The translations under genes were made by a program, and so were the position numbers. Shown here in pieces: positions 631-59,847 of a stretch of DNA of 64,000 nucleotides. The notes under the pieces were generated by a model. It was not told where the DNA came from. It did no database searches and saw only the letters and a program-made list of their open reading frames with translations. Each line of letters begins with the position of its first letter. The first letter of the stretch is position 1. Origin of the DNA: Ceratodon purpureus. Lineage: Eukaryota; Streptophyta; Bryopsida; Pseudoditrichales; Ditrichaceae. The stretch is from contig CM026426.1 in assembly GCA_014871385.1 (NCBI GenBank), positions 78,783,566 through 78,847,565 of the forward strand. Reading direction: 5' to 3'.

Positions 631-2071
631 TGAGGAGAAAACAAGGGTACTTGGGGCACTACAACATTTCTTCAAGCCTGTTCCTAGCTCGGATTCGGAT
701 GACGATAACGGGGATGACTCAAACACATTTGAGCCGTGGACCTTCAAAGACCCCTCGAAGGTCAAAAATTGGACATTGCGATGGGTTGCACACACCCCAT
801 ATCTTACCTTCGCAACCATTTTCAAGGGTGAAGTCGATGATCCCCACGTCATCGACATGGAAACCAAGGTCACCGAGTTTGACCACAAGGGGAGAGATCA
901 AATAATGATCCTCTGCTCATCTATGGGGACTCATCCATACCTCTTCTCCATAGTAGTAGACGTAGCAGAGAACCTCTTCGACTCGATTTCCTTAATGGAA
1001 AGTCTGTCGAATTCACCCTACGACGAGATAGTGACCACAATGAGGCAAGAAGTACTCGACAGGAAGTGGGCGACCAAAGATGGACGAACTCTCCCGGCGA
1101 AATCCCTAGCGTGGAAACTGAGGAATGTTGTCAGCACCCTTACGCTCCGCCCAACGGAGGCAAAGGTTAAGCAGAACCTGCGAAAATCTCATATTGACGT
1201 TTCTGGAGTGACAGCAACCGGGAGCCAAATGGGAAGCCAACAGACAGGACGCAATAGGGAGAGAGCAATAGTTCCTTCCCAAAGCCGGGGCGCTTCTGCA
1301 ACTCCCACACCCCTCTCACCATTGAAGAAGAAAGGCCTCGAGAAGAAAACTGACAAGCCAAAGCCCAAGAAGGACTTGCTCTTATCTACGGAGGACTTGG
1401 CAACAAGTTTGAACTCTGTTCTCGGGGAACTTCCAAAGGTGAACAAGGTTGGAGAGGTCCTGGACTTCGATAATGCCAATCGAATTTACCAGAATTTCTT
1501 CGCTGATTGCCAGGACGAGTTCGTCTTCAAAACAAATGGGCAACCAAAGAAGGTCAGTGTGGACGTGACGCGGTGCAAGCCCGCACCGGTCCATTGGACT
1601 ATCCGTGCATATGAGAAGCGGGGCATGGAGGAGATGAAGAACTACTTGGTCAACATGCCGGATAGGACACATAAGCAAACCCTGTGTCTGATGCCAGACG
1701 CGAAGGCACGACCTCAACAAGAAGAGGATCTAAGGGGCTGTACATTCAACATCATCAACGGGCAACACAGCGTGGCGGCGTCCAAATCTCTCATCGAGGA
1801 TAACGCCAGTGAGGAGTTGGTGAGGGACTTCAGGAGGTGGGATGCGTACATCGTTTGGACGCTTGATGTAGATAAGCTGCGAAAGATCTCAGCATTCTAT
1901 AATCGGGTGAACCATCTCGCAACCTTTAAGCCAACTTGGGCGAGCAATATACTTGCCTCAAGAAAAGTGTGGGTGAAGTATGGTAAGCCCCAAAAGAAAC
2001 ATGCTGCCGCTGGTGCTGCCGACCGCAGGAGTACAGGTCCAAAAAGTAATCCAGCGTCGAAGACATACGAC
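631..2071 (+). CDS. Family-A gene exon: ParB-like GQH domain protein
   Basis: This long open exon follows an acceptor (TTCTTGTAG) and ends at a strong donor, GTAAGT, at 2072. No credible ATG starts it, so the true start is probably an upstream exon. The N-terminal part contains an acidic stretch (SSDSDDDNGDDS). A basic, low-complexity linker (KKKGLEKKTDKPKPKKD) comes at about residue 180 of the open stretch. The C-terminal third holds FNIINGQHSVAASKSL followed by a helical stretch ending YNRVNHLATF. GQH followed by a helix is the pattern of the ParB/Srx N-terminal superfamily (G-x-x/Q-H-R-x-x-A). The same layout recurs at 57.5-58.1 kb and, as DGNHRCQAW, at 47.1 kb. The ParB assignment is by eye and moderate; that the three are related to one another is firmer. 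Confidence 0.65.
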
Positions 2072-2240
2072 GTAAGTTCACTGATTCATTAGCATTAGCA
2101 GTTTAGCTCGAGTCGAGCTAAATATTGATAATCTTCTTTGTTTTCAATATTCTGGTGTATCTCGAGCAATTTAGCTCGAGTCGAGCTAAAGAGTAGTTCC
2201 GTGACAGCATCATCTAAGGTTTCTTCCTGTGCGTATGCAG
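2072..2240 (+). other. Phase-0 intron carrying two family-A palindromes
   Basis: The donor GTAAGT at 2072 and the acceptor TATGCAG ending at 2240 join two long open frames exactly in phase 0. Inside lie two copies of the palindrome with arms TTTAGCTCGA/TCGAGCTAAA, at 2102-2122 and 2170-2190. Splicing is inferred from frame continuity, not observed. Confidence 0.75.
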
Positions 2241-3620
2241 AACTTCGTGAATGCAATCAGGGAGCGCTTCGCTATGATCGATGTGGCGAAGCATCAAGCC
2301 ATGGTGGCGAAGAAGGGAGGGAAGAACACTATCTCGCTAACAAACGAGCTGTTTATCATTACATCCAGTGATGAAACATGGGACCTGTGGAAGGAGGTGA
2401 TCGCGTCTGCGGCATGTGGTAGATTCATTGATCCCGACACCGAAGCACCTCATAAGAAATTCTATGAGAAGAAGGGGTTCGTTCCGGACAAGGATGGGAC
2501 GCTTCCGAGGGAGTTCTTCAAATGGCTCGGGAACTTGACAGAGGCAGATCACCAGAAGCTGTGTAAGCACATCCTGCATAAGTCTGGGCCAAGTCGGAAG
2601 TACACATATCCGAAGGTTACCATTAAGCAGAATACGAGTGTATTGGAAGACTGCTACTTGGTCAAGGAGTGGGCAGAGCGGAGAAAACGTAAGGCTGTAG
2701 CTCAAGCCGAGTTCAACAACATTAATCCAACGCTCCATCTATTCAAAAGAGACGGCTTCGATGTACCCGCTTGGAAGAATTTCAAGAAGGCTTATTATGT
2801 CTCCAAGGAGTCGAAGCACGTTCTGCTTGATTGGGGTATTCTAGACTCGTACTGGACTAACTCCAGAGCTACACAGTTCCGCAACAAGTCGGCCAAGGAT
2901 CTCTCCCCATATGCGGTTGAGTTCTTTAAAACCTTCCTGAAAGTTCGACATGCATTTCAGAGTCCTTCAGCTGAGATGTGGTTCCTCCCATTCATTAGGG
3001 AGCCTCGACTCGCCTTCGGATCTTGGCCCTCCGATATATGGAGGTTGGCGGGCGGCGCACTCACATTCGGAATCATCGACTTCCGGTTCCTCCCAACCTA
3101 CAAGACGAGGCACAACTACACTTTGGAGAACCCCTTCTTCATGGAGTTCTTCAAAATGATCGATGAGTATGGGCAGCCCCAGTTTCACGATGTTCGCCAC
3201 TGGCTTCTCATTTGCGGAGACGATGAGGACTTCGCCCAGGTGCTCACTTGGGTGGAGCGAAACACCTTGAGTGGTCGTAGAAGAGTCCATTCTGAGTATG
3301 TACCCGCTCCCAACGAGCAACTTGGCGGACACCCCCCGAAGAGCAGAATCGCGATGGAACCCGTGAAACTCCTGTTTCTCATTGATGATAATGTACTTGA
3401 GAACGATGGGTCGACAACAGAACCTCTTAGCAAGTACACAACTCCGGACCACCCACTGTACACGGACAACAGGAAGTTTAACGAAAGGAGGTACGCAATG
3501 TATCCATCCGAGTTAAGGATGGAGTTCTACCTGCAGGTCCACGACACTTTCTGCAATACCGGGGGGGCGGTTTATCAGCTCTATGCTGGAACGAAGTGCC
3601 TCATGGCCGCCGCGATAAGT
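2241..3620 (+). CDS. Family-A gene exon: helical region and methyltransferase-like motif I
   Basis: This exon is open for 460 codons after the phase-0 intron. The start matches the family-C protein: LFIITSSDETWDLWKE here against LVFVSDKAYNEWQLVF at 58.3 kb. The middle is rich in W, F, K and D and I do not recognise it. The end reads MEFYLQVHDTFCNTGG then AVYQLYAGTKCLMAAAIS, which has the shape of motif I of an N6/N4-type DNA methyltransferase (helix, hydrophobic strand, D/N-x-F/C-x-x-x-G, helix with AA). The next exon supplies AFVVADDSDSS, the expected following strand with an acidic end. The exon end is set by frame agreement with exon 3; the donor there is not a consensus GTAAGT. Family and function are inferred from pattern and from the clearer homologue at 44.2-44.5 kb. 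Confidence 0.6.
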
Positions 3621-3752
3621 GTTTCCACACTTTAGCTCGAGTCGAGTTAAATCGTTCTACTGTTTTGATCTTATGCACCATGTATGCATACACTTCCACA
3701 CTTTAGCTCGAGTCGAGCTAAACCTTGTTTACCTTGCCTTTGTTTTTTTGAG
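3621..3752 (+). other. Probable intron with two family-A palindromes
   Basis: A 132-base non-coding piece lies between two open frames of matching phase. It ends in a T-rich tract and AG at 3751-3752. The 27-base block TTCCACAC plus palindrome occurs twice (3623-3651 and 3694-3722), a small direct duplication of palindrome and flank. The donor choice is uncertain (GTTTCC, or the ATAAGT just before it). Confidence 0.55.
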
Positions 3753-4688
3753 ATGCTCTCGATCTCGGCTTTCGTGGTCGCGGATGATAGTGACTCGTCT
3801 CATATGATCAAAGCTCAGTCACTTGGATTAACTCTGGACCCAACCGATTTTAGTGTCGACGCTTATTATGTCGATATGGAACGCTTTCCAGAATATGGCA
3901 AAGCCGTGCGGAAAGGGAAAGGCAGAGCTATGGAGGATGGTGACGATGTTGATCTGGAGGAAGATGCTCCTACCGAGGAACAGACCCCCTCCTCCAGTGC
4001 TGCGGACATTAGCAATGAGAGCGATGCTCCGCCTTCTGATTCGGTAAGTCAGACAGCATTTGAGGGTGGAGTGGGGAGAAGACTCGATTTCCTTGACGTC
4101 GACATTACACGTACGGACGATGAGAGACCGGGTTCTGCACCGGAGCTGGGATCCGCAAGTGGGAGAAAGACTGGCGGTGCGTGAAGTATTGGAATGACGG
4201 CACAGAAGAAAAAGAAGCTCAACCCTACAGCTCGGCAAGCCTCCCCGTTGGGGAGAGCCGCTCCCTCTCCGGATGTTCAAGCTCTTATGGCAGAATTACA
4301 GGCGTCCAAGGATAGGGAGAAACACTTACAAGATCAGATGGCACAACAGAAAATGGATATAGAGAAGACTGTGCAGGCGACAGTGTAGGCGGCTCTGCGA
4401 GGCATCAGTAATGTCCCTATTTTCCCGAATGCGGGTCCAGTTCTGCCCAACGTCCAGCCGATAGGTAGCGCCCCACCTACTCCGCGAGTACTTGAGATTT
4501 TGGGCTCCCCTACCAGTGGTGCAAAATTGCCAAAGTCGGATCCGAGTCCCGCATCAGTGCCTGAGCCAAGCCATCATTGCACCGACCAGGTCATGCGTGA
4601 CCCTAGTCCCAGCCCACCCCGTTCTCCCTCCCACAATCAGACTCAGGGAGATGCTCCCGAGACATCTTCAGGTCCCTCCCAAACTTAG
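3753..4688 (+). pseudogene. Family-A gene tail: acidic and proline/serine-rich exon
   Basis: The frame opens with MLSISAFVVADDSDSS, the presumed strand after methyltransferase motif I. It then gives an acidic linker (DLEEDAPTEEQTPSSS), a short coiled-coil-like stretch (LMAELQASKDREKHLQDQMA) and a proline/serine-rich tail. It holds for 312 codons but contains TGA at 4182 and TAG at 4386. A consensus donor GTAAGT at 4044 could end the exon before both stops, so the later part may be intron, read-through or decay. No catalytic motif is visible in the tail. Confidence 0.5.
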
Positions 4689-4791
4689 ATTTTTTGAACT
4701 CGGAATTTTGTAGATGAGGTGTTAATACCGGAGTAGTTCACTGAAATGTGCATTTTTGTACCAAAACGATTGTAATTAATACAAATGGGCT

Positions 4792-4814
4792 GTTTAGCTC
4801 GACCCGAGCTAAAC
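4792..4814. repeat. Single family-A palindrome
   Basis: Arms GTTTAGCTCG and CGAGCTAAAC flank a 3-base centre. It sits in the 200-base spacer between the methyltransferase-like tail and the FCP1-homology exons. Confidence 0.9.
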
Positions 4815-4896
4815 CGTTCAACTTTTTACCAATCCCTTCTATGTCAGCTTCATTGATCACTCTCTGTTGATTCTATAGTTCTCTTGCAATGCCCAG

Positions 4897-4973
4897 GTCA
4901 CGAAGTGCATGAGGAAGTGGACGATCTTCCGATCGTGGATGATGTTGTCATGGCCCAAACTGCGGATGAGCCT
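4897..4973 (+). CDS. Small acidic exon before the FCP1-homology domain
   Basis: An acceptor (TGCCCAG) precedes a short acidic frame reading HEVHEEVDDLPIVDDVV. A possible donor (GTACGC at 4974) joins it in phase 0 to the exon at 5142. The frame stays open to a TAA at 5061, so it may instead be the end of a transcript. Confidence is low because neither splice site is strong. Confidence 0.35.
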
Positions 4974-5141
4974 GTACGCACAAATATGGATTTAGATGTC
5001 AGGGCCCAGTGTGCTCTGACCTTGCCAACGTGCGTAGAGGTCATTCTTGACGATCAACCTTAAGATTCATTGTATCATTCGTATAACTCCGTCCTAGTAT
5101 AATATAGTAATGTCCATCTGTCATCGGTATTTCCTCTCCAG

Positions 5142-5930
5142 GTGCGCGAGGCATCTGGATGTGACGTAAGTTCTAGTGAAGAATTGAGTCCTGTCCCGAC
5201 GCGACCTCAGACTGGTTGGTTGAACGTTGTCCTCGACCTCAATGGAATACTCTGCTCCAGTACTCCTAATTGGCCTGGACAATCATTCGTTAGCCATGAC
5301 CTTAGCATCCACTCAGCGTCCAAGCCAGCAGTCGTGGGCCCCAAGCTTGTTTGTGTCAGGCCCAATTGCGCTGATTTCCTTCGTCGGTTGTCAACGTTCG
5401 CAACCATAAGTGTGTGGAGTTCGATGAAGACTTCGACGACAAAAATGATCTGCGATTATCTATTCGGTCCTATTCGTCCTGTCTATCCGCTCAGAATTCT
5501 AGGTCAAGAGGACTGTCAGAGAGTTCCTATGGGCGTAGATTTTTGAGGTCGTCCGGTATATATGAAGGAACCCGGGACTCAGAAGGACATCTTCCTTAAG
5601 CTGATGTTTGATGGTCTCTTTCGTAAATTTGGTGGCCTATATTCCGAAGCCAACACCATTTTTATCGACGACAGCCCGATCAAGCACTGTCAGAATAATT
5701 CTTACAATGTCCTTTTACTCTCCACTTGGAACAACCAGAATCCCAATGCCGCAGATGATCGTTTTTTGATGTCGAAACTTTTGCCATATCTTGTAGACCT
5801 ACTCCACTTTGTGGGGACAATCGCTAGATTCAAGGCCGAGCGTCCGATCGGGAAGAAAATGTATTATAATGACCGTTCTACCTGTGAACAATACGCTAAG
5901 ATTAACGAGGCAATTAGCCGTAGAGCATAA
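5142..5930 (+). pseudogene. FCP1-homology (HAD-like) pseudo-phosphatase, family A
   Basis: The exon follows a good acceptor (CCTCTCCAG). It encodes a HAD-superfamily FCP1/NIF-like domain. The first motif is NVVLDLNGILCSS, where active CTD phosphatases have DxDxT; here the second Asp is Asn and Thr is Ile. Then come the arm RPNCADFLRRL with ATISVWSSM, and the late acidic motif TIFIDDSPIKHC. DxNG with VWSS and DDSP resembles a plant FCP1-like family whose motif I is often D-V-N-G, so a host-gene origin is plausible. Catalysis is doubtful without the second Asp. One in-frame TGA lies at 5544, inside the domain; the frame is otherwise open to the TAA at 5928. The same domain occurs three times at 61-64 kb. 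Confidence 0.75.
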
Positions 5931-6160
5931 TTTGGCATGATTTCGGTTCTCTACTTTGTTAATAGACATTTCTGAACTGCCGCGGAGCTATTAATATGTT
6001 GTACATCTTAACCACTTGCGTAATCTTTGTATCCAGACTACTCCTTCTGTAATACGAAGTTTATATTTCTTTCTTGATCTATTCTGCCCCTTGCGACGAA
6101 TCCTAAACCATTGCTGAATTATTGGGGGATGTATGTTTCTATTCGCTTTATGTATTGCAG

Positions 6161-6475
6161 GATAATGCATGTCGAGCCTCAGTGGATTCTTTGAATAATG
6201 CTTATGGCTGCGGGCCCTCTCTACGTAGCAGAGGGCTTCTGTTGCAATCCGTTGCAACATCGCAGTCCACGATGGACTATTCAACTATGGCTGTCGACGA
6301 AGGGGTTGTAGACAGCCCGGTTAACCTGTCCGTTCCCAAGACCCTGAAATCCCCGTCTCCTATGTGGCCACGGACCGTACTGCAGGTTCTATCTCCGAAA
6401 CAACAGAGTTCTACCCCTACGAAGCGTGCTCTTTATAACAATGTGGAGGACATGCCGTCACCACCACCGGCAAAG
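6161..6475 (+). CDS. Low-complexity exon of the family-A gene
   Basis: An acceptor (TATTGCAG) opens a frame of 105 codons rich in serine, proline and threonine. It ends SPPPAK at a donor (GTTGGT). It joins in phase 0 to the exon at 6748. I recognise no domain. It could be the C-terminal tail of the gene upstream or a separate transcript. Confidence 0.45.
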
Positions 6476-6747
6476 GTTGGTTTTCATTCCTCAGTATTTG
6501 CTTTTCATTCCTTTCTGATGTTTCATTCCTGTAAGTTTCTTTCATGATGTTTCATTCTGATGTCCTTATTTTAGCTCGAGGCCACCTAAAATGATTGATC
6601 TTTTTATAATTTCATCTAGGTCTGGTTCTAGCTTATGTAGGCCTCCTCGTTCATGGTCCGTTCGACCTTTACACTTGCACTCAGCAGTTTAGGTCGATTC
6701 GACCTAAACCGAAATCTCTTCCCAATGCTAATTTATCCCCTTTGCAG
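6476..6747 (+). other. Phase-0 intron with two variant palindromes
   Basis: The intron runs from GTTGGT to TTTGCAG. It holds a decayed palindrome at 6569-6591 (TTTTAG...CTAAAA) and an intact one at 6687-6709 with arms GTTTAGGTCGA and TCGACCTAAAC. The second is a new version of the family-A arm, with C to G in one arm matched in the other. Confidence 0.6.
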
Positions 6748-7086
6748 ATGCTGAGGCTACGATCAACAACTACAGGATCCAGGGCAAGGAAGTCTGCCGA
6801 CTCCCACTCTAAACCATCCAGTACCCGTCGCCACTCTCTGCCAGAGTCAAGCATCGGTGACAGGCGTAGGCAGAAGTTGCAACGTCTTCTTGATAGTCCA
6901 ATTATGCAGGTTGAGGGAATGTCGTGGACACGTCAGCGCCAACGGGAATTTGTCAAGTCAAGAATTGAGGCTTACGGAGGGACTCCACAACCATATAGAG
7001 GATACTATGTACTGTATAGCAATGGCGCAGACAATGTAGACGATTATAAGAGTCCTCTGTGTTATTTCAATGTAATTATGTTTTGA
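6748..7086 (+). CDS. Basic C-terminal exon, unrecognised
   Basis: The exon starts MLRLRSTTTGSRARKSAD after TTTGCAG and ends at TGA 7084-7086. It is arginine- and serine-rich (STRRHSLPESS, DRRRQKLQRLL), then gives an aromatic tail (YRGYYVLYSNG). It could be the last exon of the family-A transcription unit, since the palindromic introns continue up to it. I recognise no family. Confidence 0.45.
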   Translation: MLRLRSTTTGSRARKSADSHSKPSSTRRHSLPESSIGDRRRQKLQRLLDSPIMQVEGMSWTRQRQREFVKSRIEAYGGTPQPYRGYYVLYSNGADNVDDYKSPLCYFNVIMF

Positions 7087-7292
7087 ATAAAACGATTGAT
7101 GTGTTTGTCAAATTTTCTCGTCTGCTATTTTTGCCTCATTGTCTTGCACACTTTTTGTGGTTTTCAAATTTCCGAATGTAATTTATGTGATTGGACATTG
7201 CCTTTTATTGAAACCTTGGTTTAGAAAGGTAACGAATAGTTACTACTAAAAATACAGAGGACGTGGTATATTCTTTTTCCTTGTTTATATTG

Positions 7293-7418
7293 CGTTTAGG
7301 TGTGATCGACCTAAATGACTTAATCATCATCTCTCTTTAAATTTGTTTATAATGAATCAATGAACATTACTAAGTTTTCTCCTGTATGTTGTTGCATTTA
7401 GGTCCACTCGACCTAAAT
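7293..7418. repeat. Two late-type palindromes (GGTCGA arms)
   Basis: Imperfect palindromes lie at 7293-7316 (GTTTAGGT...ACCTAAAT) and 7396-7418 (ATTTAGGTC...GACCTAAAT). They are the last members of the series. The rest of 7087-7542 is AT-rich with no gene seen. Confidence 0.8.
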
Positions 7419-7542
7419 GACATGGACCTCATTGTTCCTTTAAGGTGTTTTTTTAATGATTCAATATTGATTTCCGCAAGATTGAAGTAAATGGGAGGGC
7501 ACGAATGTGGCCATTTCTCTACACGCTGATTTCCCAAATTCA

Positions 7543-10500
7543 AGAATATCTCCCAAAATAATGAATATGGTGTTCAAGACTATCGACTATTGGGTCCACG
7601 ATGGCAGCAAGGGCTGCACGAAGCAATCACTACATTCCCCAAGTTTCATTGGACGCACGCTATGCCCCGATCATGAGAGGAGGTTCTACGCAAGTGGAGC
7701 TGTGCATGAGGAGCTCGTTTCCGACACGGAGGTTGCGTGAAGACGCAAAGATTGACTTGTGGATCAATGGAGACTTTACCCTGTTGATCCAGTGATAGGG
7801 AAGCCACCTCCAATCAAATTGCTAAAAGAGTTCATTGAATTCATATGTCATGGAGAGCAAGGTCTTCGCGGATATACATACAGGCCGCTGGATCATTGTG
7901 TACATGGTCCTACACAGGAAGAGACGTGGATCCAGTTGGCACAGTTGAGCGAAGAAGTGCTTCAGCTTAGAGGCGAAGCTCTGGCTAGCAACTCAAGGGC
8001 AGCCGAAGATGTCCAGTTGATGTTCATGCGTTGCATTGAGTTAGAGAAGACATGCACGGATTTTCAAGCTGAATTACAGGCTGTCTGTGATAGCCATGCC
8101 CAAAGGGTGGAGCAATTGGAGCGCCATGTGCGGGGTCTCGATAAAGACGTTGACCGTTGCCAGCGGAGGGCCAGCTTCGAGATGGAGACCCCTATGGGCA
8201 TGCGAAGTAGGATTTGGGCTATTAGAGGGATTCACGAGTTAAAACCTGGATCAGGTGGATCAAAAGCAAGAGTGAAGCTTGTGCGGACAGTGCTGCTACC
8301 AGATGTGGTGCAGTTTGTTGTCCACAGGAACCGAGAGGAGCGTCGTCAATCTCGACTTCGGGGGGATAAAGACTTAAAATAGGACTGCAGTAGCACTAGC
8401 TCGAATTCTGTCACGGCATGAAGGTGTAGCTCTCGCTTATCCGCCTGCAATGGCACATGTTCAGTCAGAGATTGCAAACAATGTGCTTAAATCGATTGGT
8501 AAGAGTATTGGACCGAACAAAATTCTTGCTGTTTGCGACCAGGCAGGGGTTTCCCATCGGGGATATGGTGCTCTCTACAAATCTGTGAAGGCTTCCATTG
8601 CTGGTCTGAACAAGGGAGTCTCCGGGAGTACTTTGCCGAGCCCCTATCATGTGAAACTGCTTCGGCAGGAGTTAAATGTAAAGCTGCCATAGTATATTGG
8701 TGAATACTACCATGCTGAAGATCGACTTACGCTGCCAGCAAGTTCTAAGAAGAACAAGAAGTCCGAGGACATGGTAAAGGAAGTCGTTTTGACTGAGAAG
8801 AATTCCCTATTCACAGACCTTGAGGTGGTCCAAAGAAGCATGGTAATCTCCTACGGCATCACGGAAGAAGGTAACATATTCACCCTAGATTGTTCTTTTC
8901 AGAGTTTGCTGTCACCAGGATTATTTATCAAATAACTGTGCCCTCACATCCACTCACCATGTTTCCACAGAGTTAAGAGGGGCACCGCTGGTATTTGTCA
9001 TGAAATTGGACAAGGTCAAGATTGTGAATGGCAAGAAATTTGAATGAGTTAGCATCACGTTGATGAATGGGGCGCTCGACCTAGATATTTAGAGGAACCA
9101 TGCCCTGTTTTTCTCAGTCCAGTCGGAGCATGAAATTTGGCCACAAGCAACTTCTCAAGTGAAAAAAGAGTCCTACGAAGTTCTCTCTTGGATATTTGGG
9201 AAATCCAAATTTCCCTCTGTGATTGCAGCACAGTCTAGTGGTGAGAAACTCACGGTCCCTGAAGTTGGAGAATTCCATGTGGAGTGGCATCTCGCTGCGG
9301 ACATGAAGACAATCAAGTGTATGTACGGGCTTGGGTCGAGGCCGTTGTGTGAAATGAACTGCTGATACTGCGAGCAGAAGAGGGCTAAGCCTACTGCAGG
9401 GACAGCAAGCCAGGCGAGTGCTGCCATCAGAAAACGTGGGAAACCGAACTGGGTGGGGGGACTGTTTGCCAACTCTGTGGAGCCAGAACCTTGTGACATG
9501 CGTGCACATACAAGGTGGAGGCCTATCTTGCCAATTTCATTGCATAGAGTGCATATTTGTACACTTCATGCCCTAGTTCGATTTGCGGAGAAGATTGTGC
9601 ATCAACACATCATTTATGTCTAGAACATACAAGATCAAGGACTGAGGGCTACAGCAATAGAGCAAATGGAGAAGTCCTTGTCAGCTATTGAGGCTCACGG
9701 TGGCAACGTGGAGATTAGAATGGATCCGAAACTGAGTGGCAGCACAGGGAATGTGCCACAGAAACCATCTTTTAGTGGGGTTGTTGCCAGCAGACTATTT
9801 AAACCAAGCGTTTGGTCTGGAAACAACAAGGCCTGGAAAGACATTTGTCAAGCAAAGAGCAATAATAGTGGCGGCGGTGCACATTGTAGGGCAAGGGCTG
9901 CTATGTGGCAAGCCTTTGAAGAGGTTCTACCATATTTCAGCGGCTTGGTGCTGACAGCAGAACAACGACTCCAGTTCAAAGGGAAGATAGAAACGTGGGG
10001 GAGAACATTTTTGGAGGCCTTTGGAGAGGAGCATGTGTCGCACTACATGGTGAGTTATATCCACGATGTTTTGGATGAATTAGGGGTTGATGGCTGACCT
10101 TACTTTCGTCAATTCTCAATCCAAGACTAACCCCGGCGTGGCTGGTGACTGCATATACTTGTCAGACATGGGAGTTGGTTTGTGGAAGAATATGGTAGTC
10201 TGGCCGTATGGAGTTGCCAGGGTATGAAGAAATCCCATCATCAAGCGAAGGCAGCGAATCAAGCGCATACAGCTTATGGTGGTGGCAAAGAGCGCATCAT
10301 TGTTATTTTGCAACAATTCCAGCATTGGTACCGAAATATACAGCATTGGTACCGAAATATAAAGCATCGGTATAAGAAGAAATTAAAGTGCACCAGGGTT
10401 TTCAATACGCCGGTTGATGAGCCAAGATTGGAGGCTACGCGTAGAAGGCGAGAATAGTGGCATCGATCAAATGCTGCCAAGGATTTGGAGAATTGGCGGT

Positions 10501-45420: not shown

Positions 45421-45439
45421 TAAGTGAAGGTAAGAGAAT

Positions 45440-46705: not shown

Positions 46706-46729
46706 TACGGAGGGATATTTAAAAAGGAA

Positions 46730-47666: not shown

Positions 47667-47714
47667 CTGCAAAATGGAGACGACGTACACAGTGAGTGGA
47701 AAAACATCATCAAG

Positions 47715-48520: not shown

Positions 48521-48569
48521 AACTACGACATGCGCTGATCAGAGTTGGAGCCCCAGCATTAGTTCATAC

Positions 48570-50209: not shown

Positions 50210-50217
50210 TATATAAG
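50210..50217 (+). promoter_or_regulatory. TATA box
   Basis: TATATAAG lies 73 bases before the ATG at 50290, at a normal distance for a plant promoter with a short 5' leader. Confidence 0.55.
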
Positions 50218-50289
50218 AAATGTCACTGGCTCCTGCATTTCCAGACGCATTTCCAGACTTAGATAATCTTAGTAGAGGCTTCACTGGAG

Positions 50290-51238: not shown

Positions 51239-53247
51239 TACAGGGAGGAATCACTTCATGTAGAGGAGGAGATTTTTGACGACATCAGTGGCAAACTCTT
51301 GCATGCAGTGGGTCAGTTATCTACCCAGAAGGAGTTTGGGACGTTTTGGTTGCTTAAACCAGGGAAGTACAGAGTCTACGGAATTACGGAGTCTGTCTTA
51401 GGTGCTTCTACTGAATTGCTTACCCCCCGATCGTCCACAATAGTGTGCATCAATTCTAATCCGCCGTTGAGGAAAGTGAAGACTGAGCCAGGACTTCAAA
51501 CCATCTTTGAGTTGAGTGATTCTGATAGTAGAAACGTACTTGAGACAACAATACTCCCTGAGGTGAAGGACACGACATTGCCAAGTGCAGTTGAGATTCC
51601 TGCGGAAGTAGTTGCCTCCCTGAAGTCATCCGTTCCATCTACCCCGGCAGTCTCCCCTCCGTCTACCCCGGCAGTCTCCCCTTCAGACAGTGTTGTCCAG
51701 TGCCTCATGAAGCTTAGCCCTCGTAAAAGGTCAAAGAGTGTTCTGTCTTGCATCAATTTTGATGCAATTAGAATGCAGGAAGTTGAGTACCTTCCTCCTC
51801 AGTACAATGGCGATGTCATTTTTGAGTTCCCACCTCTAGGTGCTCACGGCCATCACTCCGCCGCAAAGGAGTTACGGGGAATGGATAGGAAATACGACAG
51901 ACACCCTTGGACTCGAACAGTGACTTCGAATATTCAGAATGACCTCAAGCTGACATTCCGTTCTTCGTCGTGCCTTGGCCATCTCCGTTGTGACAATGTC
52001 AAATGTGAGTATCTTACACGTGATAATAGGACTTCGGTAGTGAACGAGACTGAATGGGATGGGAAATCTGAGAGACTGTATGAAGTTGGGTCGAACCCGC
52101 CGCAGAGTTCCACTGTGATCTGTAAATCTTGCAGTACGCCGCCGACCTGCGTTGCACTTTGCCCTGCAAAGATTTACTATGTCACTGTAGGACCTCACAT
52201 GACGAGAGCGTGCGTCCACTTGGGAACTCACAACCACCCAGTGAAGTCCGGCGAGAACCGTGACTTCATCGAACACACGGAGAATTTGATCAGGGAGCAG
52301 GTGGAGCGTACTCCCTCCGCCACTCCCTCCGCCATCGTCCTCGAAACTGCGAAGGAGCTGCTGGGCCCGTTACTTCTCGCCAAGGAAGGTGAACCGCAGA
52401 AGATTCTGGAATTGGAGGAGCTCGAACCAATATTCGACCGCTGTAAGCACCTCTCTTCCCCAAACATCCAAAATTGCATTACATCGTTCAAGAATGTTAG
52501 GCGCTTTGGGACCATGGATGGCATCAGGATGCTGCGAGGCTTCAGCAACTGGAAGTTTATTCAAAATAACATGTTCCCGGGGCAAGGCAATGATGCGGCG
52601 AAGGTGTTTGTCTTCAAGATGTCTGAGGTAGGGCCGGGTTCTGGAGTCGATCTAGTTAAGCGTATGCAGACAGGCGGTGACTTGGAGGATGCGTGGATCA
52701 TGTTTGACCACGTGAGGCGAGTTAGGGACTGCGTAACGATGGCGTGCCACGTCTACGACTCCACTTACTGTCGGATAATGACAATCGCTGCGTGCGACAT
52801 GCAGTCGGTGGACACGGCAGCCCAGTCCGTGCTCTGGAAGAATTTGAATGCCAGTATGGAGACTCACGGGGTCGCGAGAGTAAACTTTAAGGGCTTCATG
52901 GCAGACGGTGCCCAAGCGAATTGGAACGCAGTTCGAATTATCTATGGGAGCGGTAACGCCTCTGAGAGGATGGTTGATAGGCAGAGGACATGCCTATTTC
53001 ATTGGAGGCAGTCTTTGGAGCAACATACAAACGCTAACATTCGACAGGACCTCCGAGCTCAACACATCAAACTTTGCCAGCAGTACAAGAACGCGACGAC
53101 ACTAGCCGAAGCTGAAACAAAATTCTTGGCAATCCGAGCATGGTGGATGTCATCCGACGCTGCAACTAGAAAAGGCTCTCCAACATGGAGACGTGGCTCT
53201 CGTTCTGGCACCATCGCTATCGCCAGTGGGGAGGCTTCATGGAACTG
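51239..53247 (+). CDS. MULE-like transposase, first large exon
   Basis: From acceptor TTCTAG the exon reads YREESLHVEEEIFDDISGK and a Pro/Ser-rich part containing a duplicated PSTPAVS. A zinc-binding region follows (C-x4-C near CLGHLRCDNVKC, CKSCSTPPTCVALC, then RACVHLGTHNHPV), of the WRKY/GCM/FLYWCH-like C-x-H-x-G-x-H-x-H kind often found before MULE transposases. The DDE-type core follows: YDSTYCRIMTIAACD, then FKGFMADGAQANWNAVRIIY and RTCLFHWRQSLEQH, matching the MULE D-G-x(n)-A-x(n)-C-x-x-H pattern. Near 53168 one base is missing in an A-run; the next frame gives METWLSFWHHRYRQWGGFME and ends at GTAAGC. Otherwise it looks whole. Confidence 0.8.
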
Positions 53248-53677
53248 GTAAGCTATCTCTCGGCCTTTCAGGTCTCTATCGCATCTTAAGTAACTTGCTG
53301 GAGGTAAAGAATCTGCTCTCTCGTGATGCTCCGTGGGATGCCCTAGCGTCCAGTGCAGCACCCTTTCAGCCCTCGGTAACGAGTACTCGAGGTGGGAGTA
53401 CAGAATCTGCTCATTTCTGATCCTCTGAGCCATGACCTACCGCCGAATCCAGCAGCCTTGCAGCCCTTGGCAAGTTGCCTCGGGGCCGAGCACTCTTGCT
53501 CGGGGTACTCAGTCTGGTCTTTCCTGATGCTCCATGCCTTCAGTAAGCGCCCAATGCAGCAGCCTTGCAGCCCTTGGCAATTGACCTCGGTGTCGAGGAC
53601 TCTTGCTAGTGGCACTGTGTTTGCTTCGCAGTCAGTAATTGGACCCTAAACCCTAACCTAACCCCTAATGTGTGCAG
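53248..53677 (+). other. Phase-0 intron with two or three B units and telomere-like repeat
   Basis: GTAAGC to TGTGCAG. It contains plus-sense B units at about 53455-53500 (GCAGCCCTTGGCAAGTTGCC, GGGGCCGAG) and 53560-53605, a weaker one near 53365, and CCCTAAACCCTAACCTAACC at 53644. Confidence 0.8.
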
Positions 53678-55129
53678 AATCACACTGAGGAAGAGCTGGC
53701 GGAAATGCCGTCGTGCAATCTTGCTGAATCAATTCACAACAGGTGGAAGCAGCAGCCTGGAGATCGGGGCAGCGACTTGTACGTTGCAGCTGTCGACGAC
53801 TTTGTAAGGGCGTTCATGCAATGCGTTGCGTACTTCCAGTTCTTGAAGGGGGAGCGTCCCGGGAAAGGTCCATCAAAAGAAGAGCTCAGCCTCCGACGTG
53901 CACAGAGATCTGCAGCGAGGACAGGGAACCCGAAGGTCCTACATGAAGCGATTATGAACATGCCAGGAGCGGGCGACTGGTGCACAAGGGACCCGCATCT
54001 TGAAGGGGAGGAGGTCTGTGTCTCACTAAAACAAAAACCCGATGTTGCCTTCGGAGATGAACGAGAGTCTCATAGGCCAGAGAAGATCACCGTGTCAAGA
54101 CCTCGTGTCCAGACTAGAGCTGCACATCGGGAGAGCGACTACCCTCCGACGGTGGTAATAGCAGACTCTCCTACAAGCACTGAAGCGGACGAACCCGACC
54201 TTCACACTGAGCAGTGTCCACCTCCAGTCGAGTACCATCACGTCACTTCAGTTGAAGAGACCGCCTGCAACCCTTCCGAGTGGCACATTGCACGACTTCC
54301 TAAGACGTCCGCTAAGGCTTGCTTTGCCCAACACGCTGTGACTAAGAAGAAATGCGTGGCACGGATTGTGCAGCACGGAAAGAGCGTGGCTGCGCCGACA
54401 TACACAGGCCCCATGAAGAACTACCAGAAGGACAGAATAGAGACTCATCAGTTCTTTTTCTGCAATGACGACATTGACAGGTGCGTCAAGGGTAGCAAGC
54501 GGAAGTGGGTCCTATCGGTGCCAAAGGTACCTGAGGTGTGGCCTGTGAAGATTGGGACGAAGTTGACGAAGAAAGAGATCCTCTCTCTAGAGAATGCCGG
54601 CTTCAGACTTCCTCAACAGAAGGAGATGTTACCAAGAAGACTCTTCCAAGACCGGGCCGCGGCAGTGGACTTCTCGGCCTACCCTACGCCGGCATACCCG
54701 GATGAGTTCCCTACCCGGCGATCAGGAAAGCTCATCCGACGGAACAAGAAGGCCCCGTCGACCAAGCATAGCAATAATTGTGCCTCTGCCTTATCGTTGA
54801 ACGCGAAGGTCAGCAAGCTGTGCATGCTGCCTGCCCCAGCCCTGGGATGCATTGTCACATTGGATTCTGGGAAGCTTCCAAAGGTACAACAATACTACCT
54901 GACCATTTCGCAGCACCTTGCCTGCACTTGCCCAAATTTCAAGGAGATGGCAATGACGGCACTTGGGAAGCGGGGTCAATGGGCTAATTGTAAGCATTTG
55001 TACTATCTTCTCAGTGTAGTTTGCGGTCTTGATTCGGAGTCGGATACATTCATTCATGCAGCTAGTTTTAGCTTCAACGAAGTGAAGCAAGTCCTAGAGA
55101 GTGGCCTTCTGAAGCACCTGGACAAGTAG
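53678..55129 (+). CDS. MULE-like transposase, C-terminal exon with SWIM finger
   Basis: It opens NHTEEELAEMPSCNLAESIH NRW, the typical MULE stretch after the catalytic core. A long variable middle follows. The C-terminal SWIM zinc finger is C-T-C-P-N-F-K then WANCKHLYYLL (C-x-C-x(n)-C-x-H) near 54930-55010. It ends at TAG 55127. Together with the first exon this gives a protein of about 1,150 residues, at the long end for MULE transposases. It would mobilise the B element. No break was seen in this exon. Confidence 0.85.
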   Translation, partial: NHTEEELAEMPSCNLAESIHNRWKQQPGDRGSDLYVAAVDDFVRAFMQCVAYFQFLKGERPGKGPSKEELSLRRAQRSAARTGNPKVLHEAIMNMPGAGDWCTRDPHLEGEEVCVSLKQKPDVAFGDERESHRPEKITVSRPRVQTRAAHRESDYPPTVVIADSPTSTEADEPDLHTEQCPPPVEYHHVTSVEETACNPSEWHIARLPKTSAKACFAQHAVTKKKCVARIVQHGKSVAAPTYTGPMKNYQKDRIETHQFFFCNDDIDRCVKGSKRKWVLSVPKVPEVWPVKIGTKLTKKEILSLENAGFRLPQQKEMLPRRLFQDRAAAVDFSAYPTPAYPDEFPTRRSGKLIRRNKKAPSTKHSNNCASALSLNAKVSKLCMLPAPALGCIVTLDSGKLPKVQQYYLTISQHLACTCPNFKEMAMTALGKRGQWANCKHLYYLLSVVCGLDSESDTFIHAASFSFNEVKQVLESGLLKHLDK

Positions 55130-55907
55130 TGATATCTTATTCGTTATTCACACATGCATCGCCTGAATTCATCTGAATGATGAAGTAGTGAGACTAAAAG
55201 GGCCACTACCAAAAATTTGCACTTGCACTGTAAACCGTTGTTCCCATTCTTGTGAATCACGCCCTTATTATTTGTAAGCGCTGTTAAGAACCATTTTGCA
55301 AGTCATTTAAAGAACTGTGTAATTCCTGAAGAGGTGCATGTAAAAGGGTCTGGGAGGAAGTCACATATGTGTGCTTAGGCCCGAACAATCCTTTTCCAGA
55401 CTCCCTAAACCGAGAGAACTCTTAGTGAAGGGGAGGTGAACTACCGACCCACCTTTGTCATAGGTCCATGAATGGGATAAACTACCACTCGTTCTGTTGT
55501 ACTTTGCAGAACGTGCATACATTTGTATGTTATGTTGCACATGTATGGTCTAATCTTTTTGTTCGTGCGCAAAGTTAGAATTCATTGTCTTCCAGTTTTC
55601 GACGCTTGCTTGGGTTGGAATCATCGGCAGTGGCTGTTGGCTGACGTTCATCCCCTACCTAGGTTGCTCACGACGTACTGAACTCAAATTCAGCGCTACA
55701 GTATTACCTCACGGCCTATCCTTATAAAAAGACCCGGCTGAGCAGTCTCTATAACAACAATCCACGAGTGGAGGCCACTACTGCACCCGAAAACCGTAAT
55801 ACAATAATTTCCACGGCCATAGATCATGCCATGTATTCATTTTGCTGAGATTGTCCACGGTAATAGGTCCCATTACAAACTAAATTTAGAAATTTAAAAA
55901 CCAAACT
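55130..55907 (+). other. 3' flank of the transposase gene
   Basis: No coding frame. Sequence between the stop codon and the right heptamer array; a possible polyadenylation signal is not obvious. Confidence 0.5.
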
Positions 55908-55946
55908 AGTTACCGCTCTCCGCTCTCCGCTCACCGCTCACCGCTC
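55908..55946. repeat. Heptamer array, right end
   Basis: On the minus strand, five units of GAGCGGT/GAGCGGA ending AGCGGTAACT. Inverted copy of the left array. Confidence 0.9.
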
Positions 55947-56455
55947 GCACTATAGTGACGTCCTTGCCGTCACAGAACAATGATAATTCATTATTACGAA
56001 TTTGAATGTGGCAATTGGAGCAGCTGTCACATCACATGCCCACGCCATTATGACTTGGTGACGGATTGAAAAAAAATCAAAACACGTCCTATCAACATCC
56101 TACGTGGCGTAATGGGACGGATGTTAGGGATGACCATCCATGCATGGATGGTATGTACATAGCCATACGTCATGACCCATCGCTCGTGACGATTCAGTCT
56201 CGGGAGGTGGGGTCCTGCAGGGTATACACCCGCCACTCCCGACATTTCCTCCTCATTTCCAGCCTTCTCTTTTTCAGCTCTCTTTCGTCCTCTTCTCAGC
56301 GCTCCGCGGAGGTCGCGTCGGCTGCTAGGGTTCAGGGCGTCAGCTCCTTCACCAGCGCGCGTCGGCTCCTGTGCTCGGATCATCTGCCGACTATGAAAGG
56401 CCATCCGCCGACGACATGGCTGCCTCCGAGAGTGGGTAAGTTGTCGCTTTCGGCT

Positions 56456-56700
56456 GTCGGCCGACGCCACCCCTTCTTGAGTCCTTCATGTTTCTGTTTT
56501 TTCGCATGGGTTTGTCCCCCCCGTCGGCTGTCCGCCAACGCCACCCCTTCTTGAGTCATTCATGTTTCTGTTTTCTCATTTGGGTTTGTCCCCCCCGTTG
56601 GCGGTCCGCCGATGGGGTAGGAGTGTCCATCCCCCTCGTCGGCTGTCCGCCGATGGGGAGGGAGTGTCCATACCCTTCATCCGCTGTCCGCCGATGGAGT
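56456..56700 (+). repeat. Family-C palindromes in a short tandem array
   Basis: Five copies (about 56456, 56523, 56598, 56638 and 56680) of GTCGGCTGTCCGCCGA-type palindrome. They are separated by repeated CACCCCTTCTTGAGT, TTTGTCCCCCC and GGGAGGGAGTGTCCAT phrases. It lies in the leader or intron before the ATG at 56745; an AG follows at about 56741 (TTTTGCAG). Confidence 0.9.
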
Positions 56701-56744
56701 GAGACTCTGATGGTCTAATCTTGTGATTCTGATTTTGCAGGGCA

Positions 56745-57479
56745 ATGGTCGACCTCACCGCAAAACCAAACGGGTTACGCTGGTTTTGTGACAAGGTTGT
56801 TGATGCTAAAGGAGAAATAGTTGCACGGGGCTTGAAACCAAGGGTGACATTCCTCGCTGGTTCGAAGATAACGGAGTGGGGCATCACCTGGCGTGACACT
56901 CCTACGTCACTAGGCTTCGTGACCAAAATAGGTCAGAAGCAAATGGCGGGTGGACCAAGATTCGAGATTATTGGTGCCAAAGAATGCAAGGATAAGGACA
57001 ACATGTGCTTGGTGATTGCATCGGTTCTTGTGGTGGAGGGGAATCCAGTGGAATGCTTCGCGGTTGTAATTTCGGCTAAGAAGTGCATGGACAGCTTGTG
57101 CTCCAAGGAAATACAGGAAGCGGCTCCTTGTGGCAGGGGCGAGAACACTACCGTAGGCGCTGACGACATACTCGACGTGATTGATATGCTCGGAGACATA
57201 GTGATGGAAGATGAGACGAAGAGTTCGGTTAAGCCTTCACCAAAGAAAATAGGCGGCCGCAAGTCTGCTGTAGAAGCGGGCACTGGTACTGTCACCCCCG
57301 AGGCTAGAGAGACACAAGCGACAGGGGAGTCATCAAGAAAGAAGAAGGGAAAGGCAGCGGCTACTGAGGGCGAGGGTGGGAGACAGAAGAGAGGTGGGAA
57401 GAAGGAAGAGAAAAAGCAGACCGTCGCGGAAGCTCTCATGCTCGCAAACAATCTCACTTCCAAAACAAAGGACACCGAC
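56745..57479 (+). CDS. Family-C ParB-methyltransferase gene, N-terminal exon
   Basis: ATG at 56745 (after TTTTGCAGGGCA) reads MVDLTAKPNGLRWFCDKVVD, RVTFLAGSKITEWGITWRD and CLVIASVLVVEGNPVECFAV, then a very basic Lys/Gly linker (SSRKKKGKAAATEGEGG). The exon end is set by frame agreement: a weak donor GTCCTT at 57480 joins in phase 0 to an exon at 57548. The order, folded start, basic linker, then ParB-like domain, is the same as in family A. Confidence 0.6.
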
Positions 57480-57547
57480 GTCCTTGCACGTTGGAGGAGG
57501 GACTTGGGCACTGCTTCTTCAACAAGCAATGTGTCCTTCCTTCGCAG

Positions 57548-58129
57548 ATTCCATATGACAGAATACACATAGCTCCCGACAAATTTAAGTACAGAGCAAT
57601 ATTCAAAAAGAGGCAGGATCAGATAAGTCTTTTCTACAAAGGACTTGGAGCAATCCGGAAGAAGCCCGAGCTGTACTACCTTCCTTTGAGTGGTGACCCC
57701 AGAGTAAAGGATCCAGTGACGGGCGAGATTAAGCTTAAAGGCTTGGAAGGACTTCTTAGACCTTTGCCAGCCCTAAATATCAAGTATTCACTTAGACAGG
57801 ATGACGGCACAGATAAGCTGGTACCTTGATATGAAGATGAGCACATCCACTGGTACATAATTGGGGGCCAGCACACGTTTGAGGCTTGTCGAGAACTGGG
57901 AGAGAAGGAACCACTGGACTCTCCTATGCGGTAGTATTACCTTAACCACAATATCATTCCTGTATGGTCCGATGACGAGGATACCTTCATTAAGGTCTCT
58001 AACGCATTAAACATCGAGGTGAAGGATAAAATCGCCGAAGTAAGTTTTAGGTCCCAGCTGGAGAAGATGCGCGCCAAATGGATCCAGAGGGGGAGGATCG
58101 ACAAGAAAGATGACTACAGCGCATGGAAG
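57548..58129 (+). pseudogene. ParB-like exon, family C
   Basis: After TTCGCAG: IPYDRIHIAPDKFKYRAIFK, FYKGLGAIRKKPELYYLPL, then HWYIIGGQHTFEACRELGEK, the GQH motif, and NHNIIPVWSDDEDTFIKVSN ending at donor GTAATT. It aligns with family A (PVHWTIRAYEKRG, FNIINGQHSVAASKS). In-frame TGA at 57827 and TAG at 57932 flank the GQH motif closely, so this copy is probably not functional. Confidence 0.6.
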
Positions 58130-58263
58130 GTAATTCACATCTTCCTCTTTTCCTGTTGTTTCCATGTAGTTGAAAGTCGTCGGCGGCCCGCCGACGCTCA
58201 GGTGGTTTTCCGTATCGTAGAAGTCAGATTGATTTATCGATTTCATTTTCTTCTTCCTTGCAG
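58130..58263 (+). other. Phase-0 intron with a perfect family-C palindrome
   Basis: GTAATT to CTTGCAG, 134 bases. Arms CGTCGGCGG and CCGCCGACG around one C lie at 58178-58196. Confidence 0.85.
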
Positions 58264-59139
58264 GAGTTCTGCAAGGAGTACCTCAGTGCAATTCTCAAAA
58301 AGTCCCCTGTTGCTCAAACCGTGAAGCTGCCCTTAGTCTTTGTGTCTGACAAAGCATACAACGAGTGGCAACTGGTCTTCAACGCCTGGGAGGAGGGGAG
58401 GATCATTGGGGAGGACAGTTTAAAACCAGGATTTCCCCTAAAGCCAGCCCGCCGGGACATAACGCTCAACGACATGCAGTGTGTGATCGGTCTTCGGGAC
58501 CACGAATGCAAGAGGCTAGCCAAGGAAATTCTGGACCTTAAAGTATACGTCAAGGTCACTGGGAAAGAGGTAGTTCAACGAGATGGAACATCATTGGAGA
58601 ATTGGTGTAAGCATGTGAAATACGAGTATGTTGTCCGAAACGAGCTTATGTGCATTTACAGGGGCTTCGCACTTAAGAAACCAGGGACTGGGAAGCATAT
58701 TGAGTGGAGCTTAGATGACTGGAATTCCCTTCAAGTCGAGCAGGGTTTCAATGATACGATGATTAGTAATATTCGGGCTGACTTGGAAGATAGTCCTGAG
58801 GGGAAGGAGTCGCTTAAAGGACGAAATCATCCGCTCACGCCGTCGCACGGGGCAACACCCGAATTCTTCAAGGACATCGTGCAGAAGTACTGGAAGTCGA
58901 ATGTGGACCAGTCTTTGCAGTCGTCTGTACAATTCGATGCCCGGATTGCACGATACCTGGGTGAAGTGTGCACAACTCTTGCCGTTCGCGGAGCATTCTC
59001 CTTCGACAAGGCGCAGTATGAGATGTTCGTAGTCTTTGGCTACAATACAGCGGGAAAGGAGATGCGGAACTTGCGACAAAGAGTCATTCTAAGCGTCGCT
59101 GAGAGGATTCACCCTGAGGTGGAGGAGCAGGTCATTTAG
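58264..59139 (+). CDS. Family-C gene, helical middle exon
   Basis: It reads VKLPLVFVSDKAYNEWQLVF NAWEEGRIIGED, matching family A (ELFIITSSDETWDLWKEV...GRFIDPD). Then come LNDMQCVIGLRDHECKRLA, LMCIYRGFALKKPGTG and AHGATPEFF-like sequence, ending at TAG 59137. It corresponds to the central, unrecognised region between the ParB-like and methyltransferase-like parts. The exon may be spliced before the stop. Confidence 0.6.
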   Translation, partial: EFCKEYLSAILKKSPVAQTVKLPLVFVSDKAYNEWQLVFNAWEEGRIIGEDSLKPGFPLKPARRDITLNDMQCVIGLRDHECKRLAKEILDLKVYVKVTGKEVVQRDGTSLENWCKHVKYEYVVRNELMCIYRGFALKKPGTGKHIEWSLDDWNSLQVEQGFNDTMISNIRADLEDSPEGKESLKGRNHPLTPSHGATPEFFKDIVQKYWKSNVDQSLQSSVQFDARIARYLGEVCTTLAVRGAFSFDKAQYEMFVVFGYNTAGKEMRNLRQRVILSVAERIHPEVEEQVI

Positions 59140-59350
59140 GTGGGTGGGGAGGTGAATAAGGTGAATAACTAAGGTGAATAAGCTTGTCACCCCATCCTTG
59201 TGGCTACTCGATGCTGAGTCCAATTACAATCTGTAAGGCGTGTCAAGGCAGACGGGTAGTTTGTGGACGGTGCATACTATGCAATACTTCCCCGATAGTT
59301 CCGCCGGGTTTCAAAGGAGTTCTCTCATTGACTCTAGGCCCTAGGTTCAT

Positions 59351-59623
59351 GTGTCCGTTATGTATCTAAAAACAACGCCCGGGGATGCATGGAATACCTT
59401 CTCGGACTTCACTGATTTGAAACAGCCGCTTCTTCCCTATGTGGACGAAGGAGAAGACGGTCTTGGGGAGGATTGGTCTAATAGAGACTGCCACGCTAGT
59501 TACTCTTACCTCCAATCTCTTCTAGAGAAAGCGATGCAGTTAGACGACGTTCGGGTGATCAATTGCTGGGGAGGTGGGAACGTCACGGACCTCGCTCTAA
59601 TAAGTCACTGCTGTCTCTTCTAG
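59351..59623 (+). CDS. Methyltransferase-like motif I exon, family C
   Basis: The frame reads LLPYVDEGEDGLGEDWSN then CHASYSYLQSLLEKAMQLDD and VRVINCWGGGNVTDLALIS. A helix ending in a hydrophobic strand, then N-C-W-G-G-G, is the shape of methyltransferase motif I. It aligns with family A (ELRMEFYLQVHDTFCNTGG...CLMAAAIS) and family B (VPLLQMLIEATTDPGNVVLDCT). Both A and C show ATAAGT at the end of this helix. Frames upstream (59140-59350) are broken. Confidence 0.5.
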   Translation: MSVMYLKTTPGDAWNTFSDFTDLKQPLLPYVDEGEDGLGEDWSNRDCHASYSYLQSLLEKAMQLDDVRVINCWGGGNVTDLALISHCCLF

Positions 59624-59733
59624 TGCCTTCGCTGTTTGCTAACCGATCGTCGGCTGACAGCCAACGCTCATTGCATCCTTTGTGTTTCGTGGGTACAAGA
59701 TTTCCTTAACCGTTTCGTCTTGTTCTTCTGCAG

Positions 59734-59847
59734 AAAAACCATTTGACTGTAATTGAGATCGTGCGTACCGAGGAAGAGAGATTCCAAGCGCACTGTCGGG
59801 TTTGGAATATGACGTTCATTCCAGGCATTTATAAACGTGCCCCTTGA
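59734..59847 (+). CDS. Family-C small exon after motif I
   Basis: After CTTCTGCAG: KNHLTVIEIVRTEEERFQAH CRVW, ending at TGA. A strand ending in acidic I-E-I-V-R is what should follow motif I. A palindrome (CGTCGGCTGACAGCCAACG, 59648-59666) lies in the intron before it. Confidence 0.4.
   Translation, partial: KNHLTVIEIVRTEEERFQAHCRVWNMTFIPGIYKRAP

Follow-up and report, generated by a model that had tools for sequence, protein, structure and literature searches.

ParB-like genes as cargo of three large DNA-transposon families, each with its own palindrome, in the moss Ceratodon purpureus

In this study, we analysed a 64-kb stretch (the window) of a 110,524,308-base chromosome of the moss Ceratodon purpureus (contig C6 of a 362-Mb assembly), which harbors three ParB-like gene copies (genes A, B, and C), each accompanied by a palindrome type of its own. 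The three copies are cargo of three large DNA-transposon families in C. purpureus, and the window holds elements A and C as well as element B, which is nested in C. This setting had been missed by the first-pass annotation, which had assigned the DNA to a eukaryotic genome, as borne out by its origin, and had described three genes with a ParB-like and a DNA-methyltransferase-like part whose products would recognise or mark their own palindromes. Ordinary host genes with repeats were ruled out by terminal inverted repeats (TIRs), target-site duplications (TSDs), and the nesting. It is quite possible, and in our view close to an even call, that each cargo protein binds the palindromes of its own family and counters silencing; the steps of binding and anti-silencing, which go beyond the pairing of gene and palindrome, we infer.

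The palindromes follow the borders of the elements. A search of the window with up to four mismatches for A and C and two for B revealed A-type sites at 20-4793 (variants to 7397), B-type sites at 40302-53585, and C-type sites at 32590-38383 and 56449-63458. Each type ends at the borders of its own element, the C type picking up again after the nested element B, and the sole exception was a four-mismatch C-type match at 3044 within element A. The sites run through whole transposons, including the part encoding a DUF7869 protein, and beyond the ParB- and methyltransferase-like genes. Genome-wide, we found 2154 exact A sites (1082 + 1072) and 2531 exact C sites, and none for the reversed-pattern controls. 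Of the A sites, 99 of the first 100 listed (contigs 1-2) were, by eye, no more than about 8 kb away from a listed A gene, as were 49 of the first 50 listed C sites (contig 1) with respect to a listed C gene. Thus, the proposed pairing of gene and palindrome held in the window and, for A and C, genome-wide. The claim of strictly one palindrome per family stood in so far as each type is confined to its own element in the window, but not in its strict form, since A has a second variant and the motifs of B relatives differ.

In a full copy of element A, 30 dyads (arm of at least 9, loop up to 5) were detected, 27 of them of the palindrome type, compared with 0 in each of three base shuffles; chance palindromes were ruled out by these shuffles and by the reversed-pattern controls. 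One array of nine palindromes lies directly 5' of the DUF7869 open reading frames (ORFs), and a second array of nine stands on the 5' side of the ParB-like gene, whose introns and 3' part hold a few more. None of the 30 sites touched coding sequence, although 43% of the copy is coding (exon limits set by us). Near both ends, element A revealed a second palindrome with both arms changed symmetrically (TTTAGGTCG...CGACCTAAA). Read by eye, the consensus half-sites have a single CpG each, embedded in TCGA for A and in TCGG for B and C.

In regard to sequence diversity, intron 1 of 28 A copies was compared (30 loci, two dropped for length). The palindrome arms displayed a diversity of 0.030, compared with 0.064 in the other intron columns and 0.103 at fourfold sites of the neighbouring exon, so that the arms change more slowly than both, while the two centre bases were freer (0.35 and 0.20). 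Column shuffles resulted in p values of 0.012 and 0.0007, which are rough because the copies are related. In three arrays, the palindromes were 94-100% alike and the spacers scored 0.43-0.77, compared with 0.33-0.38 when shuffled. In one copy of element A (L009, 3900-4330), palindrome spacers occur in both orientations inside a single array, giving the impression that units had been inverted at the palindromes. For B, one 1.2-kb region from each of six subfamilies was read by eye. A relative at 84% identity keeps GGCATAATGCCTCGG-T/A-GCCGAG, those at 72% and 70% repeat GCTCGGCCCCGATCAGAC and CCGAGCAGACTCGCAGC, respectively, and one at 57% shows scattered CTCGG and a GGGGCTAT repeat; these motifs are not always palindromes. 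The series from 84 through 72 to 70% identity, with CTCGG/CCGAG motifs that become increasingly different, is suggestive only.

The features of the window are listed in Table 1. Its copy of element A (13.7 kb) starts about 6.1 kb left of the window. Copies elsewhere in the genome were alignable over up to about 19 kb and have a common TIR (AACACCATATTCGTTATTTTGGGAGAT), the termini being AACACC...GGTGTT. A second copy (C1:298018-316955) comprises 18.9 kb, and 4-bp direct repeats were found outside the TIR in both copies with both ends read (CAAG and TTGT, respectively). The left part of element A encodes the DUF7869 protein on the minus strand (PF25273, E 1.4e-41), the right part the ParB-like gene on the plus strand, which in database gene models runs into a NIF/FCP1-phosphatase-like part (P0001, with PF03031 as its only domain match). 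Element C (32223-64826, its right end outside the window) is split by element B and has the same divergent plan, i.e., DUF7869 on the minus strand and the ParB-like gene followed by the NIF-like part on the plus strand. A clean TSD for element C was not found; GAGA flanks both ends only if two bases on the left were lost.

Table 1. Features of the three transposons in the 64-kb window (TIR, terminal inverted repeat; TSD, target-site duplication; ORF, open reading frame)
Feature	Position	Strand	Remarks
Element A, right part	1..7574	+	DUF7869 DNA transposon, TIR AACACCATATTCG..., TSD CAAG; from copy alignment, ends, and TSD
A palindrome array, 11 units (TTTAGCTCGA-N-TCGAGCTAAA)	18..590		5' of gene A
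Gene A exon with ParB-like motif INGQHSVAAS (FNIINGQHSVAAS)	614..2071	+	
Gene A intron 1, two A palindromes (2102, 2170)	2072..2240		
Middle-part exon of gene A, with the proposed motif I (DTFCNTGG) close to the exon end	2241..3620	+	no match to methyltransferase models
Gene A intron 2, two A palindromes (3631, 3702)	3621..3752		
Gene A third exon, early end in window copy compared with another copy	3753..4184	+	
Gene A NIF/FCP1-phosphatase-like part	5160..5930	+	PF03031 E 1e-13 in another copy
Subterminal variant palindromes	6570..7417		TTTAGGTCGATTCGACCTAAA at 6688; weaker at 6570 and 7397
Element C, left part	32223..38829		left end set by a matching 24-bp inverted repeat (4 mismatches); palindromes of type C at 32590-38383
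DUF7869 gene region of element C	34372..36910	-	PF25273 in ORF 35577-36407, E 8.6e-21
8-bp TSD GCCGTCAC left of element B	38822..38829		
Element B, 17.1 kb, nested in element C	38830..55965	-	subterminal inverted GAGCGG-rich repeats; empty site in a C copy (L052)
B palindromes CCTCGGTGCCGAGG	40302..41167		
Gene B methyltransferase-like C-terminus, two exons, approximate limits	43910..44480	-	VVLDCTTST, then exon VGLEADQEIFAAVL
B palindrome array in intron, units mostly 108-110 bp	44730..45383		
B palindromes in intron	46448..46679		
Gene B exon with ParB-like motif CDGNHRCQAW (FFVCDGNHRCQAW)	47049..47666	-	one stop (TAG) in window copy
B palindrome array in intron, 108-bp units	47821..48482		
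Two long element B ORFs, putative transposase with SWIM-like Cys/His stretch	51239..55129	+	our reading; no Pfam match
B palindromes between the two long ORFs	53478..53598		
Element C, right part	55966..64000	+	right end at 64826
8-bp TSD GCCGTCAC right of element B	55966..55973		
C palindrome array 5' of gene C	56449..56654		
Gene C N-terminus with ParB-like motif IGGQHTFEAC	56745..58129	+	two stops and a frameshift in window copy
C palindrome in gene C intron	58178..58196		
Gene C middle part, proposed motif I (VINCWGGG)	58264..59850	+	
NIF/FCP1-phosphatase-like ORFs of element C	61085..63249	+	PF03031 E 2.9e-12 and 4.9e-6 in two ORFs; third by similarity

The nesting of element B was evident from a C copy at C1:4083200, which runs collinearly with the window except that 38830-55965 is missing and GCCGTCAC is present once instead of twice. 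The subterminal inverted repeats of element B (39 bp) are 92% alike, with the outermost 20 bp or so unmatched. We read the two long ORFs as a putative transposase with a SWIM-like end; neither revealed a Pfam match at E <= 10 or a match to the MULE transposase profile, and three element B ORFs scanned gave no DUF7869 match. The TSD length of 8 bp, seen for one insertion, fits Mutator-like transposons, which generate TSDs of 8-9 bp, as well as other superfamilies with 8-bp TSDs.

All three families are numerous. We scored at least 96 genomic matches for gene A (from 610 candidates, of which 96 were scored; by our count, 70 of the matches had no stop), at least 152 for gene B (150 of 1870 candidates scored), and at least 150 for gene C (150 of 492 candidates scored, all matching). 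Families B and C look recently amplified, as we infer because many of their matches share score and frame length. The window copies themselves are broken (Table 1), that of gene A having a short third exon, and the many copies with open frames mean that the system may still be active. A protein-database search with the joined gene B protein resulted in no relative, despite its many genomic matches. In the databases, gene A proteins are named C. purpureus KC19_VG..., and a few relatives not labelled Ceratodon were found for gene A (P0017) and gene C (P0018-P0021); P0018 and P0019 are 84-87% alike to the gene C protein and may also come from Ceratodon.

The ParB-like and motif I sequences named by the first-pass annotation were located where it had placed them, for A and B in the exons given in Table 1 and for C near 57860 (HWYIIGGQHTFEAC) and 59560 (VRVINCWGGG). 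A ParB-like stretch is common to A and C (BLASTP, 26/89, E 2e-6), DGNH is invariant in six B relatives, and profile comparisons weakly aligned GQH to DGNH (B-C, E 0.067; A-B, E 0.10). With a strict splice join, the C-terminus of gene B reached 26.3 bits against PF01555 (E 8.4e-6, cut-off 26.7). When one junction residue was misread, it reached 29.6 bits and also matched NCBIfam and PHROG methyltransferases, and tblastn with a query containing one misread residue hit phage methyltransferases to E 2e-5. The PF01555 match covers profile positions 163-218 of 221 only. Taken together, these matches support the view of the gene B C-terminus as degenerate N4/N6-methyltransferase-like sequence. In the genome, at least 32 places match PF01555 above the cut-off (150 of 773 candidates scored). 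The order of a ParB-like followed by a methyltransferase-like part looks old, because two of these matches were found at 4.5-5 kb on the downstream side of distant B relatives (43 and 38% identity). The same order is known from bacteria and phages, among whose methyltransferases ParB-methylase fusions exist; in the moss, however, the match is limited to the end of the profile, the key motifs look lost, and ParB_N was not found in the genome.

The best PF01555 match (C8:9595672-9596436) covers nearly the whole profile (2-218) with one TGA inside, and may represent a host methyltransferase gene or a contaminant. Two further places (C1:5958254-5958736 and C5:15306119-15306592) revealed mid-profile matches (29-190 and 29-187) within open frames of 567 and 569 aa, respectively, unlike most of the other 30, which are C-terminal.

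The glycine loop and the [DNS]PP[YFW] motif are characteristic of N4/N6 methyltransferases. Inspection of the three proteins by eye revealed neither, the broken gene B of the window reading DCTTSTSSS at the position of the glycine loop. No methyltransferase model matched the scanned pieces of genes A and C, and the C-termini of A and B did not align at motif I. Methyltransferase ancestry, which had been proposed for all three genes, is thus supported for B by the near-cut-off PF01555 match, while the case for A and C is a short motif. In place of the DxD phosphatase motif, the NIF-like parts read DLN, DIN, or DIK, because of which they may be inactive.

The closest parallel is found in Arabidopsis. 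According to the available excerpts of PMC5735166 and PMC10398659, VANC proteins of VANDAL transposons target short motifs specific to each family, which are repeated in tandem in introns, between genes, and in terminal parts, and VANC21 binds its own motif and strips methylation from its own family only. VANDALs and the moss elements are alike in their anatomy, i.e., a transposase gene, an extra non-transposase protein, and short family motifs in non-coding parts that differ between related families. The clustering of such motifs in the non-coding parts of their own transposon was found for A and C, and for B in the window. In contrast, VANC carries DUF1985/DUF287, neither of which turned up in the pieces of the three moss proteins scanned with Pfam. 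The moss sites are dyad-symmetric, while the word palindrome does not appear in the excerpts of the two papers. Furthermore, such genes are found in the moss on what appear to be two kinds of transposon, and their function is here deduced from sequence.

On our reading, the cargo protein would be a sequence-specific DNA-binding factor, composed of a ParB-like module and a decayed N4/N6-methyltransferase (B) or a decayed-looking FCP1-phosphatase-like part (A and C). Within its own family, it would recognise the dyads of promoter-side, intronic, and subterminal parts, and recognised copies would be kept from silencing so that their transposase gene is expressed. The palindrome would then serve as a family password, protein and palindrome drifting together as do VANC and its motifs, though the protein would be unrelated to VANC and its sites dyad-symmetric. 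More tentatively, we suggest a new kind of transposon self-recognition, in which what appear to be two different kinds of moss DNA transposon acquired a ParB-like module with dead enzyme domains, each family reading a private dyad and only that family being spared from silencing. Of the earlier idea that the proteins recognise or mark their own palindromes, self-recognition remains the natural reading. Marking by methylation appears less likely than binding, because the glycine loop and the catalytic motif look lost by eye. If binding and anti-silencing by the cargo proteins hold true, sequence-specific anti-silencing as in the VANDALs of Arabidopsis would be a wider plant strategy, arisen again with another protein and symmetric sites. 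C. purpureus is a transformable moss, its short and abundant palindromes lend themselves to easy testing, and the diverged families in one genome would make a code of protein and DNA motif readable.

Several results weigh against this reading. The pairing demonstrated above is one of palindrome and element, and not of palindrome and ParB-like gene as opposed to the transposase. Compensatory changes in both arms were no more frequent than expected (1 seen, 1.03 expected at 322 palindrome-like sites of A copies). No constraint was found in C, where 117 of 126 arm positions were identical, compared with 0.913 elsewhere (two copies, one of them broken). B relatives at 43 and 38% identity displayed no motif in the approximately 430-505 bp seen. 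Two C sites (60507 and 62320) lie within ORFs, so that the description of the palindromes as lying in introns and spacers applies to most sites but not to these. As for the identification as ParB, ParB_N (PF02195) gave 0 matches at E <= 10 in the whole moss genome, while 11 of 14 control genomes matched, and Pfam, NCBIfam, and PHROG scans of the protein pieces revealed no ParB match. AlphaFold models of the C-family protein P0018 and of A exon 2 were uninformative (mean predicted local distance difference test 41.9 and 35.2, respectively), and Foldseek with the P0018 model resulted in no match with E <= 0.001. A PDB sequence search returned chance-level matches (E 0.39 and 0.49) from one of the B and C profiles and none from the other. 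The moss proteins have the G-Q/N-H-x-x-x-A motif and the palindromic sites in common with ParB/parS and DGQHR-type proteins; the sole match of this kind, however, was DGQHR_dnd_1 for one B relative (E 0.13), no better than unrelated weak matches. What resembles ParB is therefore a short motif that found no backing in profiles, the PDB, or predicted folds, and these searches did not support the identification made by the first-pass annotation.

The main rival, which we consider somewhat unlikely, is that the palindromes bind the transposase (DUF7869 or that of element B), like the subterminal repeats of other transposons, and that the ParB-like protein is accessory or unrelated. The occurrence of palindromes throughout the element, the array by the DUF7869 ORFs, the variants near both ends, and the DUF7869 gene carried by both A and C would all fit; yet most sites of the full A copy are promoter-side or intronic and far from the ends, and element B has arrays and a ParB-like gene while its three scanned ORFs gave no DUF7869 match. 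It is distinctly less probable that the palindromes are functionless by-products of tandem duplication and conversion. Partly related array spacers, B units recurring every 108 bp or so, and the lack of constraint in C would agree with such an origin, but the palindromes outlast their spacers, their arms vary less than fourfold sites while the centres are freer, the second A palindrome is a symmetric variant, and separate introns hold single sites that belong to no array. About as improbable is the original proposal, in which the protein would be an active N4/N6 methyltransferase marking the palindromes of its own family. The near-cut-off PF01555 match of gene B, its phage relatives, and the 32 places in the genome, two of them downstream of distant B relatives, speak for it, and DCTTSTSSS in place of the glycine loop, the unseen [DNS]PP[YFW] motif, the lack of any model match for the A and C pieces, and the short stretch of the profile matched by B speak against it. 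Finally, it is very improbable that the protein, like ParB acting on parS, would gather element copies together or partition them, e.g., to promote accumulation on one chromosome or transposition complexes: the ParB-like motif and the 63 of 96 scored A copies on contig C6, which makes up 30% of the assembly (our count), would suit this, but no ParB profile matched, integrated elements need no partition, the C6 excess comes from 96 scored of 610 candidates, and sex chromosomes accumulate transposons anyway.

Literature searches revealed no print record of a ParB-like protein or family-specific palindromes of this kind, a claim confined to those searches; a search on DUF7869 found no paper, and combinations of the terms ParB, moss, transposon, and palindrome gave matches unrelated by title. 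A superfamily named Lanisha has reportedly been linked to C. purpureus. In the excerpt of PMC12730594, Lanisha is cited as a proposed cut-and-paste DNA transposon superfamily (Maumus, McDaniel, Carey 2020, Repbase Reports 20:2521), and the elements described here may already be in Repbase under this name, a comparison made through this partial description by the citing paper. The 4-bp TSD of element A lies within the 2-5 bp of the CMCT clade (PMC12730594, excerpt), whereas its start AACACC differs from the CA..TG termini given there for 'most cases'. The Lanisha trait described in the same excerpt is C2C + H3-4H between the second D and the last E of the transposase. By eye, the DUF7869 protein revealed no such pair beyond its probable second Asp, and its C-x2-C precedes the likely Asp residues.

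Regarding the wider surroundings, the chromosome of the window is presumably the V sex chromosome, if VG in the KC19_VG... protein names means V. An A-family exon with 100% protein identity to the window copy was found 54.6 kb upstream (C6:78729731-78731041), which suggests a recent segmental duplication or transposition. Between elements A and C, the window also contains a stretch (28688-29782) with a predicted hAT-like C-terminal dimerisation region (PF05699, E 6e-4, slightly below the cut-off), a putative remnant of another transposon.

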